A DNA stretch of 59,128 bases from assembly GCA_937951485.1 (NCBI GenBank), contig CALEDJ010000043.1, positions 1 to 59,128 on the forward strand. The letters run 5' to 3'. Under the pieces are notes generated by a model. It made no database searches. It worked only from the letters and a program-made list of their open reading frames with translations, and was not told the origin of the DNA. The stretch is from an uncultured bacterium (GTDB lineage Bacteria; Hydrogenedentota; Hydrogenedentia; Hydrogenedentales; CAILVY01). Positions 2,830 through 40,644 of the stretch are shown piece after piece. Every line of letters starts with the position of its first letter. Within the stretch, counting starts at the first letter, position 1. Made by a program: the position numbers and the translations under genes.

Positions 2830-3576
2830 CTATTCCATTTTTTCCAGGGGCGGATCAAAATGGTCGCGTTTGATGCCGCCCTTCACCGCGGTCGGCGCGG
2901 CCCACTTGACGCCGTTGTAGATGACCTTGAGAATCTGTTCGTTGTAATAGATGGGGATGGTTTCATGGCCGGGGCGGAAATAGAAAACCTTGCCCAACCC
3001 GCGATGCCAGCAGCAGCCGCTCCGGAAGACTTCGCCGCCCTGGAACCAACTGATGAAGACCAGTTGGTCCGGCGGTGGAATGTCGAAATGTTCGCCGTAC
3101 ATTTCCGCGCGCTCGAGTTCGATGTATTCCGGCAGGCCGTCCACGATCGGATGCGCGGGGTCCACGACCCACAAGCGCTCTTTCTCGCCAATGCCCTTCC
3201 ATTCCCTCCATTTCAGCATGCAGGTGGTGCCCATCAGCCGCACAAAGGGCTTCGACAGATGGCCGGAATGGAGCACGACAAGGCCCATGCCTTCCAGCAC
3301 GCGCTGCTGCACCCGCGCCGCGTTCTCATCCGTCACTTCGTGATGGGCCATGTGGCCCCACCATGTCATCACGTCGGTGTTCTTCAGGATCTTGTCCGCA
3401 AGCCCCTGGTCCGGGTCGGACAATTCGGAGACATGCACCGAGGCAATGCCCGGCTGTTTTTTCAGGTATTGCGCGATCTGGCGGCCCATGCCTTTCGGAT
3501 AGATTTTTTTCACCGCTTCGTGCTGCCGCTCATGCACCCCTTCGTTCCACACCGTCACCCGAATGCCTTTGTCCAT
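2830..3576 (-). CDS. ThuA-like (trehalose utilisation) domain protein
   Basis: 248 residues from ATG at 3576, with AAAGGAAAGGG six bases upstream; an earlier in-frame ATG at 3612 lacks a site. The sequence follows the ThuA-like type 1 glutamine amidotransferase fold: RVTVWNEGVHERQHEAV, DQGLADKILKNTDVMTWWGH, VLEGMGLVVLHSGHLSKPF, HPIVDGLPEYIELERAEMYG, and GKVFYFRPGHETIPIYYN. ThuA is linked to trehalose or sugar metabolism in rhizobia, but most members are unassigned; this one lacks a recognisable Cys nucleophile elbow. No signal peptide, so probably cytoplasmic. It sits between two exported-protein genes on the same strand. Confidence 0.88.
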   Translation of the reverse strand: MDKGIRVTVWNEGVHERQHEAVKKIYPKGMGRQIAQYLKKQPGIASVHVSELSDPDQGLADKILKNTDVMTWWGHMAHHEVTDENAARVQQRVLEGMGLVVLHSGHLSKPFVRLMGTTCMLKWREWKGIGEKERLWVVDPAHPIVDGLPEYIELERAEMYGEHFDIPPPDQLVFISWFQGGEVFRSGCCWHRGLGKVFYFRPGHETIPIYYNEQILKVIYNGVKWAAPTAVKGGIKRDHFDPPLEKME

Positions 3577-3685
3577 GCCGCACCCTTTCCTTTGCTGCGT
3601 TGCATATTCCATACGCCCCGGTCATCGGGGCAAACCCCATTCTAAAGGGCATTCCCGAAGCACGCAACTTCCAATGAGGGACCGG

Positions 3686-4333
3686 CTAGAACGTATACCC
3701 CATACCCAGACTGAGCATGTTCGTGCCTTCATTGCGGCGGCCGATGTTGGCGTTGGAGATGTGCTCGAATTTGAGCGAAGCGTGGAAGTTCTCCTTGCAC
3801 TTGTATCCCACGCCGACGCCGGTCAGGAAGTTGAAGTGAGAACTGTTGCCCCGGATGCGGGGATAGTTACCCATCGGATGGGCCTCGGCCTCGGCGTAGA
3901 AGCCCCGGTATTGGTTCTTGAGCACATAATAGCGAAGCACCGCGCCGACGCCCGCGGCAAAAACGGTTTTGTCCTTGTGTTGTTCATAGACCAGCAACGG
4001 CAGGAGGCGCAGGCCGGTGGTCAGACGGCCGGTCACCGGCACTTCGTATTCCACGGTGATGGTTCCCATCCAGTCGTCCTTGCGATTGCGCTTGTTCGTG
4101 TGCAGTCCCGCCGCGCCGGTCACTTCCACGCGCCACATGGCGTCTTCAAAACGCAGAACCTTGTGAATACCCCGTTTTTCCGGCTTGTTTTCCGCATCCA
4201 CAGCCATGTCCGGCGGCGACGCGGGAACCTGAGCGGACGTCTCCGTTGGGGTGGCTTTTTCCGCCTGCACCGCCGCGCACAATCCCAGCATCACACACAC
4301 TCCTGCCAGCATCCATCGCGTTTTCATGCGCAC
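3686..4333 (-). CDS. Acyloxyacyl hydrolase / PagL-like lipid A 3-O-deacylase family protein
   Basis: 215 residues with a signal peptide (MRMKTRWMLAGVCVMLGLCA, cut near VQA). The remainder shows alternating beta-strands of an 8-strand outer-membrane barrel ending in aromatic Phe (MGYTF). The C-terminal stretch FEHISNANIGRRNEGTN matches the PagL catalytic region: His191 and Ser193 are present. In Pseudomonas PagL the third residue (Glu) lies 14 residues after the His; here that place is Asn205 and the nearest acid is Glu202 (+11). The family removes the 3-O acyl chain of lipid A in the outer membrane. Presence implies a Gram-negative envelope; activity is uncertain. Confidence 0.75.
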   Translation of the reverse strand: MRMKTRWMLAGVCVMLGLCAAVQAEKATPTETSAQVPASPPDMAVDAENKPEKRGIHKVLRFEDAMWRVEVTGAAGLHTNKRNRKDDWMGTITVEYEVPVTGRLTTGLRLLPLLVYEQHKDKTVFAAGVGAVLRYYVLKNQYRGFYAEAEAHPMGNYPRIRGNSSHFNFLTGVGVGYKCKENFHASLKFEHISNANIGRRNEGTNMLSLGMGYTF

Positions 4334-23608: not shown

Positions 23609-23710
23609 CCCATGATTCTAGCCCCAGTCGGATGCGGGCGCAATCGTGGCTGCGCCGCCCGATGCCGATGCGGTATGCTGACTGCGCCGCAACATGACGG
23701 AGCACTCACG

Positions 23711-25135
23711 ATGACGAATGCCGGAACGATTCTGTGGTTTCGCCAGGACCTGCGCATCGCGGACAACCCCGCACTCGTTGCCGCCGTGCGCCGGGGCGGG
23801 CCTGTCACCCCTGTGTACATCGGGACCCCGGACGAAGAAGGCGCATGGCCGCCGGGCGCGGCGAGCCGGTGGTGGCTGCATCAATCGCTGGCGGCGCTGG
23901 ATGCGGCCCTGCGGGCGCGGGGCAATCGCCTGATATTGCGGCGCGGGCCGTCGCTGGAAACGATTCGCGCCATGGGCCGCGAGACGGGATGCCGCGCCAT
24001 ATGCTGGAACCGCCGTTACGAACCGGCGGCCGTCGCACGCGACGCCGCCGTAGCGCGCGCGCTGAAGGATGAAGGATGGGACGTCGTCATCTCCAACGGC
24101 TCGCTCCTCGTGGAACCCGAGGGGGTCCTCACGGGACAGGGAAGGCCCTATCAGGTCTTCACGCCGTTCTGGAAGGCTGTGCGCGACCGCGATGTCGGCG
24201 AAACCCTGTCCGCCCCGGACATCATTCCCGCGCCGCGCCCACTACCGGCTTCCGCAGCATTGGCTGCACTCGCGCTGGAGCCGACCGTAGATTGGGCGGA
24301 AGGGTTGCGTGAGACCTGGACCCCGGGACCGGACGGGGCGAATGCCGCGCTGCGGTTGTTTTTGGAAGAGGCCGTTGCGGACTATCCCGAAAAGCGCGAT
24401 ATCCCGGGCGAACGGGGCACTGCGCGCCTCTCGCCGCATCTTCATTTCGGCGAAATCAGTCCGCGCGCGGTACTGCATGCCATTCAACAACACGCGGCGC
24501 TGGACAGCGCGCCCGGCGTGCTGCGGGGCGCCGAAGCGGTGCTGCGCCAACTCTATTGGCGCGAATTCGCCCACTATCTTCTGTATCATTTTCCGCATAC
24601 GCCCGAACGGCCGCTCCGCCCGGAATTCGCCCGCTTTCCCTGGCGGAAGGACCCGGCAGCCTTGCGCGCGTGGCAGCGCGGCCGGACCGGCTATCCGCTG
24701 GTGGATGCGGGCATGCGTGAACTCCGGCGCACCGGCTGGATGCACAACCGCGTCCGGATGGCTGCGGCCTCGTTCCTGGTGAAGCACCTGCTCATTTCCT
24801 GGCTGGAGGGGGCGCGGTGGTTCTGGGATACGCTCGTGGATGCCGACCTCGCCAACAACACCTTCGGCTGGCAGTGGACGGCGGGATGCGGCGCCGACGC
24901 CGCGCCGTACTTCCGCATCTTCAACCCTGTCCTCCAGGGCAGGCGTTTCGACCCGGACGGCGCATACGTCCGCAAGTGGCTGCCCGAACTGGCCGGGCTG
25001 CCGCAACGCTTCCTGCACGAACCCTGGTCAGCGCCGCCCGACCAGCGCGCCGCCGCATATCCGCCGCCCATCGTGGAACACGCCGCCGCACGACACCGCG
25101 CACTCGAGGCCTACGCCGCGATGCGCACCCTCTGA
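23711..25135 (+). CDS. phr: Deoxyribodipyrimidine photolyase (cryptochrome/photolyase family)
   Basis: 474 residues from ATG 23711 (GGAG eight bases upstream). N-terminal Rossmann domain ILWFRQDLRIADNPALVAAV, RWWLHQSLAALDAALRARGN. C-terminal FAD domain: ARLSPHLHFGEISPRAVLHA, LRQLYWREFAHYLLYHFPHT, TGYPLVDAGMRELRRTGWMH, NRVRMAAASFLVKHLLISWL, and WQWTAGCGADAAPYFRIFNP with the class I CPD photolyase spacing. It repairs UV-induced cyclobutane pyrimidine dimers using FADH- and blue light. A 7-bp tandem array starts 13 bases after its stop codon. Confidence 0.96.
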   Translation: MTNAGTILWFRQDLRIADNPALVAAVRRGGPVTPVYIGTPDEEGAWPPGAASRWWLHQSLAALDAALRARGNRLILRRGPSLETIRAMGRETGCRAICWNRRYEPAAVARDAAVARALKDEGWDVVISNGSLLVEPEGVLTGQGRPYQVFTPFWKAVRDRDVGETLSAPDIIPAPRPLPASAALAALALEPTVDWAEGLRETWTPGPDGANAALRLFLEEAVADYPEKRDIPGERGTARLSPHLHFGEISPRAVLHAIQQHAALDSAPGVLRGAEAVLRQLYWREFAHYLLYHFPHTPERPLRPEFARFPWRKDPAALRAWQRGRTGYPLVDAGMRELRRTGWMHNRVRMAAASFLVKHLLISWLEGARWFWDTLVDADLANNTFGWQWTAGCGADAAPYFRIFNPVLQGRRFDPDGAYVRKWLPELAGLPQRFLHEPWSAPPDQRAAAYPPPIVEHAAARHRALEAYAAMRTL

Positions 25136-25148
25136 CCCGGGCACTGCA

Positions 25149-25197
25149 AATGCGGAATGCGGAATGCGGAATGTGGAATGTGAAATGCGGAATATGG
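25149..25197 (+). repeat. Seven-unit AATGCGG heptamer array behind the photolyase stop
   Basis: Units: AATGCGG three times, AATGTGG, AATGTGA, AATGCGG, AATATGG, with an exact 7-base period. It occupies the start of the 306-base gap 25136-25441, which otherwise shows no gene. A second array of the same unit lies directly behind dut (36464-36505), in the same orientation relative to its gene. Confidence 0.9.
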
Positions 25198-25441
25198 ATT
25201 TGAGAAGGAAGAATCGGCGGGGCGAAGCCCAAAAAGTGAAAGGCGTTTCTGTGCCTTTTGCGCTTCTTGTGGCCGTTGCTGTGGATGGAACGCGAAGCGG
25301 ACGAGGGGAATTAAGCGCAAAATCGCTTTTCACGCATTTCCCGTCTTTTTCCTGAAGCATGAAAGGAACCATGAATATGCGGGCAAACAAAGGCTGTTCT
25401 GCGCCCGCGGCCCAATCGTCACCGGTTACAGGGGTACAAAA

Positions 25442-27268
25442 TCAGTCCGACAGCACTTTATAGATTTCAACTGTTTCGAGTCCTTCGCCCCGAAGACGCG
25501 GCAGGTGCATGGCCTGCACCAGCCGGAAGTGCGCGGGATCGGTTCGCCAGGCGTGGAAGAGCGGCGTCAGGTCGGCATGCGCGGGCGATTCACGCACGAA
25601 GTCCACCGGCATCAGCACGTATTTGATGCGGTGTGCGCGCAGCCAGTCGCGCTGCGCATCCGGTGTCATCGCCGGCAGGCGCTTCATGGTCGCGGGGTTT
25701 TGAAACGCCGGCGGATCGAGAAAATAGGTACGCGGATCCACCGTGAGGACGACTCCGCCGTCGTTGCAGAAGCGGTTGACATACCGAAACGCCTCGTAGC
25801 GCTCCACGCGCCGCCGAAGGTGCTCCTCTTTGGTTTCCATGCCGAGCACCACGGAAATTCTGTCCTGAATGACGAGGGTGTGCAGCGTCAGTCCGTAGAG
25901 AAAAGCCGCCAGCAGCAGCGCGGCAATCGGCCGCGAGAGCGGCCGCAGGCGCACGGCGGCAAAGCCCGCCAGGGCCATCATGGGGATGAAAAAGGGGAGC
26001 AAAAACCGCGCCAGGCGCATGAAGAAGAAAAAGAACATGCCGCCGGCGACGGCGTACAGCCCGACCGCGCGCGCGCGGCGTCTGCCGACCAGAAAGCCGG
26101 GAATACCCAACGCCAGCACCAGCACGCCCGGCGATTGCGACCAGCCGTCGTAGCGGCCCGGGCGCATGACAATGTCCCACGGGAAGCGAATGAATTCCAC
26201 AAGGCGCAGGCCGCCGCTGCGTACAATGGATTCGTGCGCGCCCGGCCCGGCGGGCGCGACGTGATCCAGGGACTGCGTGGGAAACAAGCCGGTGAAAAGC
26301 GGAAAGAGCGGGTTGCCGACCACCAATGCGCTGCGCAGCAGCCAGGGCGCGGCGGCGAGTGCGGCCGTCCCCAGAAACAGGGCGGCCGCGCGTCCGCGCG
26401 CCGCCGCGCTGCCCGTCAGCATGCCGATCCCCAGCAATGCGCAGACCAGCAGCCCCGTATGCCGGATGCCGCAGGAACTTCCCGCCAGCAGCGCCGCAGC
26501 GATCAGCCAGCCGCGACGTTGCGTATCAAGATGCGCCAGCAGCGCGCTCAATGCGGCGGTCGCCATCGCCGCGAAGGCGAGGTCAATGGAGACATTGCCG
26601 GCCTGGTTCAGGAAAATCGGCGCGGTGGCGAGGATGGCCGCTGTAATCATCCCGCAGCGCCGTCCTCCCAGACGCGCGCCGAGACCATATGCCGCGCCGC
26701 ATGCCAGGACGGCGAAACACCAGTTCAACAGCGTGACGGGTTTCTCGCCGCCTTCGTAATACGCTGCGGCATAAAGCGCTTGCATCAGGTGGGGATGGCC
26801 GGACCAGACGTTGCCGGGTTGCAGGGCGATGCGCCCCGCGCGCGCGTAATCGGCGGGCAGCGCGATGTGCGCCGCTGCAGCCTCCCATGAGGTCACCGGG
26901 GCCAGCGCGCCAACAAGCGCCAAGATAAGCGCCAGGCCCGCCGCCGCCAGACACGTCCCCTCGAACCAGTTCAACGGCGCCGCGGGCGCGTCATGCGATC
27001 CTGTCTCCGGCGGGCGCGCGCGACGCGAATACAAAAACAACTCCCAGATAAGGCCGCCCAGCGCCAGCGCGCCCAGCGCGGTTTGCGCCCATGCCAGCGA
27101 CGCGCTCCCCAGATTCAATACGATGACGGCGCAACCGGACATGCCGACCAGGAAAGCGCAGGTCCACGCCTCGGGACCGCGCCCGATGCGCAGGCGCTGC
27201 ATGATGAGCCTGCCCAGCACCCCCGCCGCCACAATAATCAACACCAGCGACATGGATTTTCTCACCAT
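25442..27268 (-). CDS. Polytopic GT39-like (PMT/ArnT-type) glycosyltransferase
   Basis: 608 residues with about 11-13 transmembrane helices. The first periplasmic loop reads GALAPVTSWEAAAAHIALPA DYARAG, where the acid in SWE-AAAAH and the P-x-DYARAG context match the catalytic loop of GT-C enzymes of the GT39/ArnT type; GHPHLMQALYAAAYYEGGEK follows. A soluble C-terminal domain (from about residue 470, RRRVERYEAFRYVNRFCNDG) resembles the periplasmic domain of such enzymes. It would move a sugar from a polyprenyl-phosphate carrier to protein, lipid A or glycan; acceptor unknown. Leader DNA carries three 20-bp repeats and a small membrane-protein gene is upstream on the same strand. Confidence 0.8.
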   Translation of the reverse strand: MVRKSMSLVLIIVAAGVLGRLIMQRLRIGRGPEAWTCAFLVGMSGCAVIVLNLGSASLAWAQTALGALALGGLIWELFLYSRRARPPETGSHDAPAAPLNWFEGTCLAAAGLALILALVGALAPVTSWEAAAAHIALPADYARAGRIALQPGNVWSGHPHLMQALYAAAYYEGGEKPVTLLNWCFAVLACGAAYGLGARLGGRRCGMITAAILATAPIFLNQAGNVSIDLAFAAMATAALSALLAHLDTQRRGWLIAAALLAGSSCGIRHTGLLVCALLGIGMLTGSAAARGRAAALFLGTAALAAAPWLLRSALVVGNPLFPLFTGLFPTQSLDHVAPAGPGAHESIVRSGGLRLVEFIRFPWDIVMRPGRYDGWSQSPGVLVLALGIPGFLVGRRRARAVGLYAVAGGMFFFFFMRLARFLLPFFIPMMALAGFAAVRLRPLSRPIAALLLAAFLYGLTLHTLVIQDRISVVLGMETKEEHLRRRVERYEAFRYVNRFCNDGGVVLTVDPRTYFLDPPAFQNPATMKRLPAMTPDAQRDWLRAHRIKYVLMPVDFVRESPAHADLTPLFHAWRTDPAHFRLVQAMHLPRLRGEGLETVEIYKVLSD

Positions 27269-35663: not shown

Positions 35664-36404
35664 TCAATCATTCTCCGGCAAAGCATTGATAAGGTATTTC
35701 GCGGCCACCGCCTGCAGCGTGTACGCCGCAGGCGCTCCCTTCGCGATGGCCTGCACCACTTCCAGGTCCGACTGCCAGACTATCTCGCCCGGCGCCATCA
35801 ACAGCGTGCTGCCGACTTCATGCTCGGTGAACAGCCGGTCGTCTTTGAAGTAGAAGTGCTCCTGGCAAAGCACCGCCGGATAGATGCGCATCAGCGGCGG
35901 AATGTCCACCGGACGAAACCATAACTTGATTTCACGCTCCGCCTCCGCCGGCGTCGCCGACGCGTGAATGAGATTGTCCAGCCGATCCGCGATGATTTTG
36001 CCGGATTCATCCATTACCGGCACGACTGTGCCCAGCGCGCGGATGCAGCCGGGGCGCGTGTCCCGCGCTTTGTGCGGATTCGTCGGCCCCGCGATGTCGC
36101 GCACTTTACGGATGGCGTCCAGCCCGTGATAGACCAGTGCAATCACCCGCCGCTTGTCCGGGGCATCGGGATAATGCACTTTGCCGCGAATATAATCGCT
36201 GAGCGCAAAGAAAAACGGCTTGTCCCGGTGCTCTACGTAGTGCTCCTCGGCCAGCATGCGCGTCACATTGACGATCTTTGCGCCGGCAAACCGCAGGCCT
36301 GTGTGAAATTCCGAGTATTGCGAAAGAACATAGCCGGTGAGCGAATTTTTCAACGCATCCGGCTTGATGAGCACCAGTGTCTGTTCCAATTTCGGTTCCG
36401 TCAT
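35664..36404 (-). CDS. ndk: Enlarged nucleoside-diphosphate kinase-like protein
   Basis: 246 residues from ATG 36404 with AGGAAGG eight bases upstream. NDK motifs: EQTLVLIKPDALKN, FAGAKIVNVTRMLAEEHYVE, RVIALVYHGLDAIRKVRDIA, GPTNPHKARDTRPGCIRAL, and the active-site DNLIHASATPAEAEREIKLW with phospho-acceptor His147. Ordinary NDKs have 130-150 residues; this one has a longer Kpn-loop region (FFFALSDYIRGKVHYPDAPD) and an extra C-terminal domain of about 75 residues (EHFYFKDDRLFTEHEVGSTL). It should transfer gamma-phosphate between NTPs and NDPs; the extension may alter assembly or substrate. Confidence 0.85.
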   Translation of the reverse strand: MTEPKLEQTLVLIKPDALKNSLTGYVLSQYSEFHTGLRFAGAKIVNVTRMLAEEHYVEHRDKPFFFALSDYIRGKVHYPDAPDKRRVIALVYHGLDAIRKVRDIAGPTNPHKARDTRPGCIRALGTVVPVMDESGKIIADRLDNLIHASATPAEAEREIKLWFRPVDIPPLMRIYPAVLCQEHFYFKDDRLFTEHEVGSTLLMAPGEIVWQSDLEVVQAIAKGAPAAYTLQAVAAKYLINALPEND

Positions 36405-36443
36405 TGAAAACACCTTCCTACGTCTGGCTGAAAAACGAACGCG

Positions 36444-36452
36444 AGTATAACA
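36444..36452 (-). promoter_or_regulatory. Extended -10 promoter candidate for the NDK-like gene
   Basis: Minus strand TGTTATACT, an extended -10 with five of six matches, 40 bases before the start at 36404. It lies just downstream (in the direction of transcription) of the 7-bp repeat array. Confidence 0.5.
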
Positions 36453-36463
36453 CTATCCGCCTC

Positions 36464-36505
36464 ATGCATTCCGCATTCCGCATTCCGCATTCGGCATTTC
36501 GCATT
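36464..36505 (-). repeat. Six-unit AATGCGG heptamer array behind the dut stop
   Basis: On the minus strand: AATGCGA, AATGCCG, then AATGCGG three times and AATGCA. The first unit overlaps the TAA stop of dut (36506-36504). Same unit and same orientation to the upstream gene as the array behind the photolyase gene. Confidence 0.9.
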
Positions 36506-36956
36506 ACAGTCCGGTATGGCCGAAACCGCCCGCGCCTCGGGATGTTTCGTCCAGCGTGTCCACGGGCATCCACGTTGCGCGGGCAACGGGCGCGATCACC
36601 ATCTGCGCGATGCGGTCACCGCGCCGGACGGTGAAGGGTTCCTGTCCCATATTGATGAGGATGATGCGGATTTCACCCCGATAATCCGCGTCAATGGTGC
36701 CCGGCGTGTTGACCATGGTGACGCCGTGGCGGACAGCGAGGCCGCTCCGCGGCCGGATTTGGGCCTCGTGGCCCGGGGGCAGCGCGATGCGCAGGCCGGT
36801 GGGAATGAGGGCGCGCGCGCCGGGTTCCAGCACGACGGGTTCGCGGACGGCGGCGCGGAGGTCCATACCGGCGGCGTGGTCGGTGGCGTAGTCGGGCAGG
36901 GGGATATCTTCGCAGTCCGGGTCGCGCACGATGGCGATGCGAACAGGGTCCGTCAC
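36504..36956 (-). CDS. dut: dUTP diphosphatase
   Basis: 150 residues from GTG 36956, which overlaps the M16 peptidase stop (GTGA); an upstream ATG at 37043 would intrude 87 bases further into that gene. All five trimeric dUTPase motifs are present: I ([11 protein letters not shown]), II (RPRSGLAV), III ([15 protein letters not shown], catalytic Asp), IV ([11 protein letters not shown]) and V ([11 protein letters not shown]). It hydrolyses dUTP to dUMP, keeping uracil out of DNA and feeding dTMP synthesis. Co-transcribed with the peptidase. Confidence 0.96.
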
Positions 36957-38227
36957 AGGGCGATCTCTCCCACTTTGCAGCCGTTCAGGGAATGCAGAAT
37001 GACCGCCGCGCAGTTTTCCTTCGTGAACACGCGGCGCGCGCACGCCATCACGTCCTCGGCGGTGACGGCGTCCACCTTCCGCACAATCTCCTCCACCGGC
37101 ACCATGCGCCCATGGTACATCATGCTCTTGGCCATGCGCGACATGCGGGTCGAAGTGTTCTCCATGGCCATGAGCAGATTGCCCTTGATCTGTTCCCGGT
37201 TCATTTCCATTTCCCGGTCCGAGACCGGCTCTTCACGGATGCGCCGGAGTTCCCCGAAGATCAGGTCCATCGCCCGCGCACATTGTTGCGGGGCCACGCC
37301 CGCATACACGCCCATCATCCCCGCGTGCGTGTGGAAGGAATGGAAACTGTAGATGGCGTAGGCGAGGCCTTCCTGTTCGCGGATGCGCTCGAAGAGACGC
37401 GACGTGGACCCGCCGCCGATGATGCTGCTGAGCAGGTCGCAGACATAGCGCGCGTCATCCTGCAGCGTGGGCGCGGGGAAACCGAGACAGATGTGCGCCT
37501 GCGCAATGTCGCGCGCAACCAGGCGCAGACCGCTCTGACAGGGCGGCGCCCCCGTATCACCGGGCGGCATCGTCGCTGGAATCGGTTCAAACGCCGTGCG
37601 AATCTGGTCCAGCACAGCCGCTTCATCAAAATTGCCCGCAACGGAGACAAACATGTTCTCCGGCACGTAGCATCGCTCGAAGAATTTCTGTACGTCGTCC
37701 CGCGTGATCGCGGACACGGAGGCTTGCGTGCCGGAGATCGGCCGTCCCAGCGGATGATCCGGCCACTGATGCGCAGCCAGCAGGTCGTGGATCAGTTCAT
37801 CGGGCGTGTCCTCAATCGAGGCGATCTCTTCGAGAATGACGTTGCGCTCCTTTTCCATGTCGCAAAAGAGTGAATTGCTCAGGATGTCAGCGAGGATTTC
37901 GATGCCGACGCCGACGTGGTGCGACAGCATCCTGACGTAGAGGCAGGTGTGTTCCCTGGAAGTGAAGGCGTTGATCTGTCCCCCGCGCCCCTCAATCGCC
38001 TCCATGATTTCCCGCACGTTGCGGTTCTTCGTGCCCTTGAAAAACAGATGCTCCAGAAAATGCGCCAGGCCGTTTTCCTGCGGCGCTTCATTCGCGGAAC
38101 CGGCCCGCACCCACACCCCGACGCTCGCCGAGTGCAGATGCGGCAACCGCTCCAAGGTCACGGTAATGCCGTTCGCCAGACGATGTATGCTCACCATTTC
38201 GGAAGTCAGGGGATTCTTGTTCACCAT
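36953..38227 (-). CDS. M16 family zinc metallopeptidase (mitochondrial processing peptidase-like)
   Basis: 424 residues. N-terminal catalytic half: [32 protein letters not shown], and the inverted zinc motif [14 protein letters not shown] (H-F-L-E-H) with distal Glu in [16 protein letters not shown]-terminal half: [52 protein letters not shown]. This domain order is that of PqqL/YmxG-type single-subunit M16B enzymes. A processing or peptide-clearing role is likely; no signal peptide. In many bacteria this gene follows pnp, as here (72 bases after it), and precedes dut by overlap. Confidence 0.94.
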
Positions 38228-38298: not shown

Positions 38299-38460
38299 TT
38301 AACGGCGGTTGTCGCGCCCGCGGTCGCGTCCGCCGCGATCCCGGCCACCCCGGTCGCGGTCGCGTCCGCCGCGGTCGCGGTCGCGCCCGCCGCGGTCGCG
38401 GTCACGTCCGCCCCGGTCATAGTCGCGTCCGCCGCGGTCGCGGTCACGTCCGCCGCGGTC
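38299..38460. repeat. GC-rich repeat encoding the PNPase Arg/Gly/Asp tail
   Basis: Plus strand is a series of CGGTCGCG/TCCGCCGCGG units (about 21-24 bases each, six to seven copies), giving repeated GGRDRDR in the protein. It spans the last 52 codons, TAA included. Confidence 0.8.
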
Positions 38461-40644
38461 GCCCGAAGCCTTGGGGTGCACTTCTTCGGCGGGGACGCGG
38501 CCCAATGCGACGTCGGCCTGCACCTTGGACAGGTTGATGCGGCCCATCTTGTCCACCTCGATGACCTTCACGTCCACTTCGTCGCCGACATCCACGACAT
38601 CCGTCACTTCGGCGACGCGGCCGGGCGCGAGTTCGGAGATATGAATCAGCCCTTCCTTGCTGCCGGGAAGCGAACAGAACGCGCCGAAGTTCATGATGCG
38701 GGTGATCATGCCGCGATAAACGGCGCCGACTTCGATTTCGGCCGTGATCTCGCGGATCATTTCGATGGCGGCCTGGGCGCTTTCCTGGTCCACGGCGGCG
38801 ACGTGGATCGTGCCGTCGTCCTGGATGTCAATTTCCGCGCCGGTGCTGCTTTGAATCTCGCGCACCACCTTGCCGCCCGGCCCGATGACTTCCCGAATCT
38901 TTTCGGGGTCAATCTTGATGGTGTAAATGCGCGGCGCATACGGCGAGATTTCAGGCCGCGGCGCGGGCATTGCCTCGCGCATCTTTGCAAGGATATATTC
39001 CCGGCCCACGCGCGCCTGATCCAGCGCCTGCTGCATCACTTCGCGGGAGATGCCCTTGATTTTGGTGTCCATCTGAAACGCGGTGATGCCCTTCTCCGTG
39101 CCGCAGACCTTGAAATCCATGTCGCCGAGGTGATCTTCGTCGCCGAGGATATCGCTCAGGACCCGGACTTCCTCGCCTTCCTTGATCAGCCCCATGGCGA
39201 TGCCCGCGACGGGCGCTTTGATGGGCACTCCCGCATCCATCAGGCTGAGTGTGCCGCCGCAGACCGTGGCCATTGAACTCGACCCGTTGCTTTCGGTGAT
39301 GTCGGACACGATGCGGACGGTGTAGGGAAACTCCTCTTCGGGGTCCACGGTCTCCGGCTTCGCTTCAAGGCCGTTGTTTTCCACCTCAAACGGCAGCACG
39401 TTCTGCAGGGCGCGTTCCGCGAGTTTTCCATGGCCCACTTCCCGCCGGCCAGGCCCCATAATCCGGCGCACTTCGCCCACCGACCATGCAGGGAAATTGT
39501 AGTGCAGGAAGAAACGGCGGAAGGCGTCGCCGGTCAACTCGTCGAGCCGCTGTTCGTCGCGGCTGGTGCCGAGCGTGGTGGTGACGAGCGCCTGGGTTTC
39601 ACCGCGCGTGAACAGGGCCGAGCCATGCGCGCGCGGCAAGATGCCGACCTCAATCGTGATCGGGCGGATTTCATCGAGAGTGCGCCCGTCTATGCGGCGG
39701 TTGGTGCGCACGACCATGCTGCGCAGCAGTCGTTTTTCCAGGGCGTCGAAGGCTTCGCCGATAAGCGGCTCACACTCGGCGAAGCGCTCCTCGCCGTACT
39801 GCGCCGCGAGTTTCTCGCGCACTTCCGTTTTCAATGCCTCAACCGCTTCGTGACGGTCCTGTTTCCCCGTGATTTGCAGCGCTTCTTCCAGCCGGGCGGC
39901 GGCCAGCGCCTCCACGTCGGCGGTGACTTGCGGGTCTTCGGCGGGCGGCGGCACCGGCATTTTCTCCACGCCGCAGCGCGCCCGCAACTCCTCGATGCAG
40001 GCCACAATATCTCGGATATGCTTGTGGCCGAATTCCAGCGCCTCCAGCATGAGCGATTCGGACACCTCGTCAGCCTGGCCTTCGACCATGCATATCGCGT
40101 CCCGTGTGCCCGCCATGACAATGTCAATCTCGCTTGCCGCCATGTCTGCCATCGGCGGATTCACCACGAGTTGGCCCTCAATATAACCGACACGCACCGC
40201 GCCGATGGGTTCCAGCAGCGGAATCTTGGAGATGTGCAGCGCCGCCGACGCGGCATTGATGGACAAGACGTCGGGGTTGTGGGTGTTGTCCGCCGAAAGC
40301 ACCGTCTGACACACCTGGATTTCATTGAGAAACGATTTCGGAAAGAGCGGCCGAAGGGGCCGGTCGGTCAAGCGGCAGACCAGAATCTCCCGCTCGGAAG
40401 GGCGCGCTTCGCGCCGGAAAAAATTGCCCGGAATCTGCCCCACGGAATAAAACTTTTCGCGATAGTCCACGGTCAGCGGGAAAAACCCCTGGCCGGGCTT
40501 GGGCGTGGGTTCGACGCAGACCGCGGAAAGCACCATCGTGTCCCCGCTTCTGCAGATGACGGCCCCATGGGCCTGCTTGGCGATGCGGCCGGTCTCAAAT
40601 TCAATTTCGTCCGCGCCGACTTGCACTGTTAAGCGTTCTACCAT
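38299..40644 (-). CDS. pnp: Polyribonucleotide nucleotidyltransferase (PNPase) with RGG-like tail
   Basis: 781 residues from ATG 40644. Two RNase PH domains (residues 1-230 and 310-560; e.g. [40 protein letters not shown]), KH domain ([20 protein letters not shown]) and S1 domain ([20 protein letters not shown]). The tail after residue 725 is an unusual (D-R-G-G-R-D-R)n sequence of about 55 residues, giving a highly charged RNA-binding-like end. The enzyme degrades RNA 3'-5' phosphorolytically. The gene is downstream of rpsO with hairpins between, the classical arrangement. Confidence 0.97.

Follow-up and report, generated by a model that had tools for sequence, protein, structure and literature searches.

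Intergenic AATGCGG heptamer arrays as probable solo arms of a dispersed element with a PF05635 gene

Introduction

Tandem arrays of the heptamers GGGAATC and GGGGA(C/T)T in Xanthomonas and Nostoc follow the same placement rule relative to genes as the arrays described below, occur in convergent pairs and preferentially have four units or so (PMC4692102). The role of heptamer repeats was left open by Rehm et al. 2015 (PMC4692102), and for TAACTGA heptamers no mechanism of spread was found (PMC4679880). A PF05635 protein of Xanthomonas was reported as a homopentamer (PMC4990558).

Here we describe AATGCGG arrays in the genome of an uncultured bacterium of the Hydrogenedentota. The two arrays of the DNA stretch studied are probably solo arms, that is non-autonomous copies, of a small dispersed element, the full form of which has a PF05635 gene between inverted arrays.

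Results

Two AATGCGG arrays directly behind stop codons

The window, i.e. the whole stretch of 59,128 nucleotides that was analysed, contains two AATGCGG arrays. Together with their neighbours they are as follows.

23675..25135, plus strand: photolyase gene ahead of the 5' end of the first array, with an uncertain start codon
25149..25198, plus strand: first AATGCGG array, probable solo arm, its 5' end 13 nt past the photolyase stop
25199..25441: spacer that follows the 3' end of the first array and reaches to the stop of a convergent gene (25442-27268)
36414..36455: short spacer between the 3' end of the second array and ndk (35664-36413, minus strand)
36456..36505, minus strand: second AATGCGG array, probable solo arm, its first two bases completing the TAA of dut
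36504..37043, minus strand: dut (dUTPase) gene at the 5' end of the second array, its start codon likewise uncertain

With the start that our gene finder assigns to ndk, the spacer between the dut array and ndk measures 51 bp. Positions 25149-25197 hold seven heptamer units in exact period 7 and with no indels; four of the seven are AATGCGG and the others AATGTGG, AATGTGA and AATATGG (TRF call: 25149-25193, period 7). The gene in front was identified as a photolyase by PF03441 (9.9e-87) and PF00875 (3.1e-51), and its stop is the TGA at 25133-25135, so the gap of 13 bases given in the original prediction is borne out. The second array claimed there, directly behind dut (PF00692, 8.5e-33) and in the same gene-relative orientation, was found as well. 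The first array lies between the photolyase gene and a PMT_2 gene, the second between dut and ndk, and neither is in 23S rRNA. Both are single arms: no partner arm was found in 25199..25441 or in 36414..36455, and the window has no PF05635 match.

Arrays in this position might be functional 3'-end elements, acting in mRNA (termination, stability or recycling) and kept behind stop codons by selection. A terminator-like site past the photolyase array, at 25236-25261, is in line with such a function, and no intrinsic terminator (G+C-rich hairpin plus T run) overlaps either window array. Folding argues against it. Compared with shuffled sequences the photolyase array gave z +0.6 and the dut array z -2.6, only the latter being better than its shuffles, and an RNA structure common to both was rejected on these values.

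Two other repeats were seen in the window, a CCTTCG hexamer array at its edge (1-104) and G+C-rich tandem repeats at 38318-38462, within the 3' end of the minus-strand gene 38299-40626.

Placement of the arrays in this genome and in other bacteria

A search for (AATGCGG)3 with up to 2 mismatches gave 84 matches in the 4.55-Mb genome (77 contigs) and 0 for the reversed control; the arrays are therefore not chance. Match counts exceed array counts because 21-mer matches overlap inside one array. About 40 arrays were read in context, the sample being the stretches around arrays plus nine control stretches, with genes called by a custom gene finder trained on the stretches read; the genomes compared were mostly MAGs. 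Units such as AGTGCGG, AACGCGG, AATGGGG and AATGTGG occur as variants.

It can be seen that, first, 39 of the 40 arrays of this genome are placed in spacers and none inside a called gene. Secondly, 19 of the 39 intergenic arrays start within 15 bp past a sense stop codon, where 1.2 are expected from randomisation within the same spacers (20,000 rounds, maximum 8). In other bacteria the same holds for 43 of 147 arrays, against 9.1 expected. The genome-wide search with stop distances was the check named in the original prediction, and random positions and orientations were its refuting outcome; both samples stand well above the random expectation. Thirdly, 151 of 186 arrays lie closer to the gene on their 5' side than to the other neighbour, whichever way that gene is oriented (p = 2e-18). 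The arrays lie in sense behind stops, and many others are antisense upstream of starts. Outside this genome they were found in records named Acidobacteria, Clostridia, Planctomycetes, Verrucomicrobia, Proteobacteria, Bacteroidia and others, a sample from at least 120 AATGCGG loci; since the records are mostly MAGs, single contigs may be misassigned to phylum. CGGGACT arrays were placed in the same manner, 14 of 15 at sense stops within 15 bp and 0 of 10 in antisense. The placement rule is thus found again in further phyla and for a heptamer unrelated to AATGCGG.

These data bear on the 3'-end function in both directions. The strong excess of arrays directly behind stops, in sense, speaks for it, as does the report that, in Xanthomonas, G4-forming repeats coincide with transcript starts or ends more often than other repeats do (PMC4692102). 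Against it are the many antisense arrays upstream of starts, the change of heptamer sequence between hosts at constant placement, and a patchy distribution: AATGCGG arrays are absent from one of two congeners (G004 versus G012) and from most Microbulbifer species. An array whose 5' end points to the nearer gene in either orientation fits terminal inverted arms and not an mRNA 3'-end signal. We consider a functional 3'-end element quite improbable. Of the original prediction, the position behind stops holds; a role in termination or mRNA stability is unsupported, given the antisense arrays before starts and the lack of an overlapping terminator.

Ordinary microsatellites, arising by local replication slippage in unconstrained DNA, would be a simple possibility. 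Unit numbers vary among the arrays, higher-order duplications are present, simple repeats are expected outside genes, and polymerase slippage has been cited as an idea for the related repeats (PMC4692102). Slippage would have to produce the same heptamer at some 40 places in a single genome, in positions and orientations far from random, in inverted pairs and in association with PF05635 genes. This explanation is disfavoured and, in our judgement, very improbable. Among periods 4-12, period 7 is prominent at loci selected for one heptamer (AATGCGG). In 238 kb of the same genome that were not array-selected it is not prominent in number, and the only intergenic period-7 runs there are the two window arrays.

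The commonest array length at loci from other bacteria is 31-32 nt. When two arrays lie less than 1 kb apart they mostly point inward (58 pairs, with 7 outward and 23 in the same direction). Decay of units along the arrays has weak polarity (p = 0.07). One larger element common to all array flanks was considered and rejected, the flanks having little in common beyond some other dispersed repeats. Several spacers of this genome (L038, L041, L046, L054 and others) contain a dispersed palindromic repeat around CAGGCTGAAGCCTGTACTCCAGAAC.

A PF05635 gene between inverted arrays

One orthologous convergent spacer was compared across 48 Microbulbifer genomes. In M. taiwanensis (G040) and in G052 it holds an AATGCGG array, a small ORF and an inverted array, flush between two stop codons. 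G079 has the same element at the orthologous locus with an apparent IS256-type insertion, the transposase gene (L275) being placed between the left arm and the PF05635 gene; the transposase was rejected as a component of the element, as this single case looks like a later insertion. Short remnants only were seen in G059 and G062. The remaining species read there have no array of this kind and differ in their spacers, several of which are 64-181 bp long and often have a terminator-like hairpin. The ORF of the Microbulbifer element belongs to PF05635 (23S_rRNA_IVP); among solved relatives the nearest in sequence is 2rld, an entry with five chains.

The genome of the window has PF05635 genes of its own. 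On contig C9 such a gene (64.4 bits), with one in-frame TAA in this assembly, is bracketed by inverted AATGCGG/AGTGCGG arrays. That on contig C76 (L269, about 11290) has a long (AAATCTC)n array directly behind its stop, and no further (AAATCTC)n arrays were found in 540 kb of the genome. On contig C15 (L273, about 100811) a weak match that does not reach the family cut-off is bracketed by inverted arrays of 9-mers, (GTCGGACNN)n / (CCGTCCGNN)n. The match on contig C60 has no adjoining tandem array. GTCGGAC 9-mers were also observed in other spacers of this genome, downstream of heptamer arrays.

In the Bacteroidia genome RUG12856 (G044), many dispersed copies are hairpins of two 31-32-nt arms with a variable loop of about 10-20 nt. 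The loop sequence varies from hairpin to hairpin; this is unexpected for copies of a single unit and counts against the element. At the loci read, no nuclease, transposase or reverse transcriptase accompanied the element regularly. The PF05635 gene gave dN/dS of about 0.1 in the two computable comparisons.

The comparison of Microbulbifer spacers also bears on one-sided erosion, by which a G-rich array would make its 5' flank prone to deletion, so that spacer is lost up to the stop or the promoter edge. In C. elegans dog-1 mutants, deletions at G-tracts extend to the 5' side. The shorter 5' side of most arrays (the 151 of 186 above) agrees with erosion, and Microbulbifer genomes with the element flush against both stops lack the terminator-bearing spacer present in several relatives. 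At a second Microbulbifer locus, relatives appear to have decayed arrays in the corresponding position. The spacer loss at the first Microbulbifer locus, as judged by comparing sequences, is suggestive. However, AATGCGG has GG tracts only, and erosion leaves the inverted pairing and the gene unexplained. As a full account we hold it to be unlikely, yet worth keeping in view; erosion could also combine with the element to explain flush contact.

Generality of the bracketing and covariation of protein and heptamer

Inverted heptamer arrays bracket 45 of the 67 PF05635 loci examined, loci chosen by pattern or family score and not at random, as against 1% of random segments. The 67 include 37 loci (30 from Hydrogenedentota, 3 from the genome of the window and 4 from Microbulbifer), 23 of which have inverted period-7 arms when a match at 5 or more of 7 positions is required; 10 of 1000 random segments, largely from array-rich DNA, did so. 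Arrays of period 7 or 9 were present on one side or both at 35 of these 37 loci; the figure for random segments was 24%. An independent gammaproteobacterial PF05635 family, reached through the pattern GGGAATC, has inverted period-7 arms at 22 of 30 loci. The bracketing heptamers include GGAATGC, GGGACTC, GGGATTC, GGGTCTA, GGCTTTA and GACAATT. Among the 120 loci listed for AATGCGG arrays alone, 7 have a PF05635 match, and AATGCGG arms adjoin it in 5 of the 7; their records are named Gamma- or Betaproteobacteria, Clostridia and Hydrogenedentota.

More similar proteins tend to have more similar heptamers (Mantel r = 0.34, p = 2e-4), and the correlation is weak between host groups alone (r = 0.03, p = 0.02). 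Several of the closest cross-group protein pairs have a heptamer in common: GGGACTC is common to Microbulbifer and the other gammaproteobacterial family (proteins 75% identical), and GGAATGC to a betaproteobacterium and Hydrogenedentota (59%). There are misfits, namely one close pair of proteins (61% identity) with 3 of 7 heptamer bases in common, and the Clostridia proteins, which are nearest to Hydrogenedentota proteins with a different heptamer. By these sequence comparisons, the heptamer tends to follow the PF05635 subfamily.

Source gene and dispersed copies in Microbulbifer

Only four Microbulbifer genomes have 32 or more AATGCGG matches, and three of them are among the four carriers of a PF05635 gene (Fisher p = 9e-4). 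Genomes with an AATGCGG-bracketed gene have 62-110 matches. The PF05635 gene of G062 is bracketed by CGGGACT, from which dispersed CGGGACT arrays are predicted in that genome; it has 484 CGGGACT matches, the next Microbulbifer genome has 75, and 43 of the 48 have none. Four genomes have CGGGACT arrays with no CGGGACT-bracketed gene, which counts against the element. M. rhizosphaerae (G041) has 32 AATGCGG matches and no PF05635 gene, so that copies either outlive the gene or spread without it. No target duplication, clean empty site or move was seen among the array loci read.

Two further observations were made in G062: the CGGGACT-bracketed PF05635 gene (L274) sits between a carB-like and a carA-like gene, and L376 has, at 3529-3800, a GGGACTC array attached to a GTAGGGTGCGCCGTGCGCACC hairpin repeat, further copies of which exist in that genome.

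The arrays might be moved by a different machinery, such as a RAYT-type transposase or a reverse transcriptase of the host, with PF05635 as a passenger. PF05635 has no known catalytic activity or catalytic domain, arrays occur in G041 with no PF05635 gene, and Microbulbifer arrays can join another hairpin repeat, all of which would suit a passenger. Such a passenger would need to come from a single family in Hydrogenedentota, Proteobacteria and Clostridia, with the heptamer matching the protein subfamily, and its gene would nevertheless be under purifying selection. We regard this explanation as improbable.

Discussion

On the reading preferred here, that the window arrays are solo arms of a PF05635 element, the full-length form would consist of an array with about 4-5 or more heptamers, then a gene encoding a four-helix-bundle protein of PF05635, then that array again in inverted orientation; the two arms point inward. 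Such an arrangement was seen in three PF05635 data sets. We propose that the protein, a homopentamer in solved relatives, may bind array DNA or RNA one unit at a time and may promote copying of the arms into new spacers. Copies would persist where they touch functional sequence without damage, which would leave arrays flush with stop codons. As the arms point inward, the outer (5') end of a surviving arm would face the flanking gene, giving sense arrays behind stops and antisense arrays before starts without any mRNA role. For an array to touch a stop directly, either it would have to insert at the boundary or the spacer outside it would have to be lost as far as function allows. Five AAT cores are contained in the preferred arm of 31-32 nt; one heptamer unit per subunit of the pentamer is an attractive guess, not a result.

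PF05635 is a common family, and its link to the heptamers would provide a source for the repeats and a candidate ligand for the protein; it would also join the intervening-sequence (IVS) elements of rRNA to intergenic repeats. The element can be tested in cultured Microbulbifer. That PF05635 proteins recognise their own heptamer and spread arms through intergenic DNA, in a widespread, replicating class of elements that lack a known transposase, including the 23S rRNA IVS and the Xanthomonas and Nostoc repeats, seems to us evenly balanced between right and wrong.

In a literature search that had most subscription journals outside its reach, nothing was found that connects heptamer arrays in intergenic DNA with PF05635 genes; this link appears to be new. 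Already known are the heptamer placement rule (PMC4692102), S23p ORFs in IVS (PMC4990558), the kinship with Avd (PMC10053308) and the REPIN-RAYT architecture (PMC3116915).

The closest repeats are GGGNATC and GGGGA(C/T)T (PMC4692102), which share with AATGCGG the period of 7, the intergenic position in sense behind stops and antisense before starts, the shorter distance on the 5' side, the convergent pairs and the preference for about four units. They differ in having G3-G4 tracts, able to form quadruplexes, whereas AATGCGG has GG only and does not provide four tracts of at least 3 G, so quadruplexes of the type proposed for them cannot be the general cause of the placement; no source element was proposed for them (PMC4692102). 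The IVS of 23S rRNA with an S23p ORF, as in Coxiella, likewise have a PF05635-type ORF inside terminal inverted repeats, with two to three tandem heptamers upstream of the ORF (PMC4990558). Those IVS lie inside 23S rRNA and are cut out by RNase III (PMC4990558), whereas the element described here lies between protein genes and also occurs as solo arms. The Avd protein of diversity-generating retroelements is a structural relative of PF05635 proteins (PMC10053308); unlike in those retroelements, no reverse transcriptase or template repeat was noticed beside the PF05635 genes read. In the BrickBuilt MITE, known from Porphyromonas gingivalis, tandem repeats are likewise part of an intergenic miniature element with inverted-repeat ends, with a unit of 23 nt, unlike the heptamers here (PMC4596501). 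REPIN-RAYT systems resemble the element in a single-copy gene flanked by repeats, in extragenic copies without the gene, in the joint evolution of gene and repeat, and in inverted pairs that form hairpins, to which the hairpins of RUG12856 and the inward pairs correspond (PMC3116915). They differ in having palindromic REPs and, as RAYT, an IS200-like tyrosine transposase (PMC3116915), in place of which a four-helix-bundle PF05635 protein and tandem heptamers are found here.
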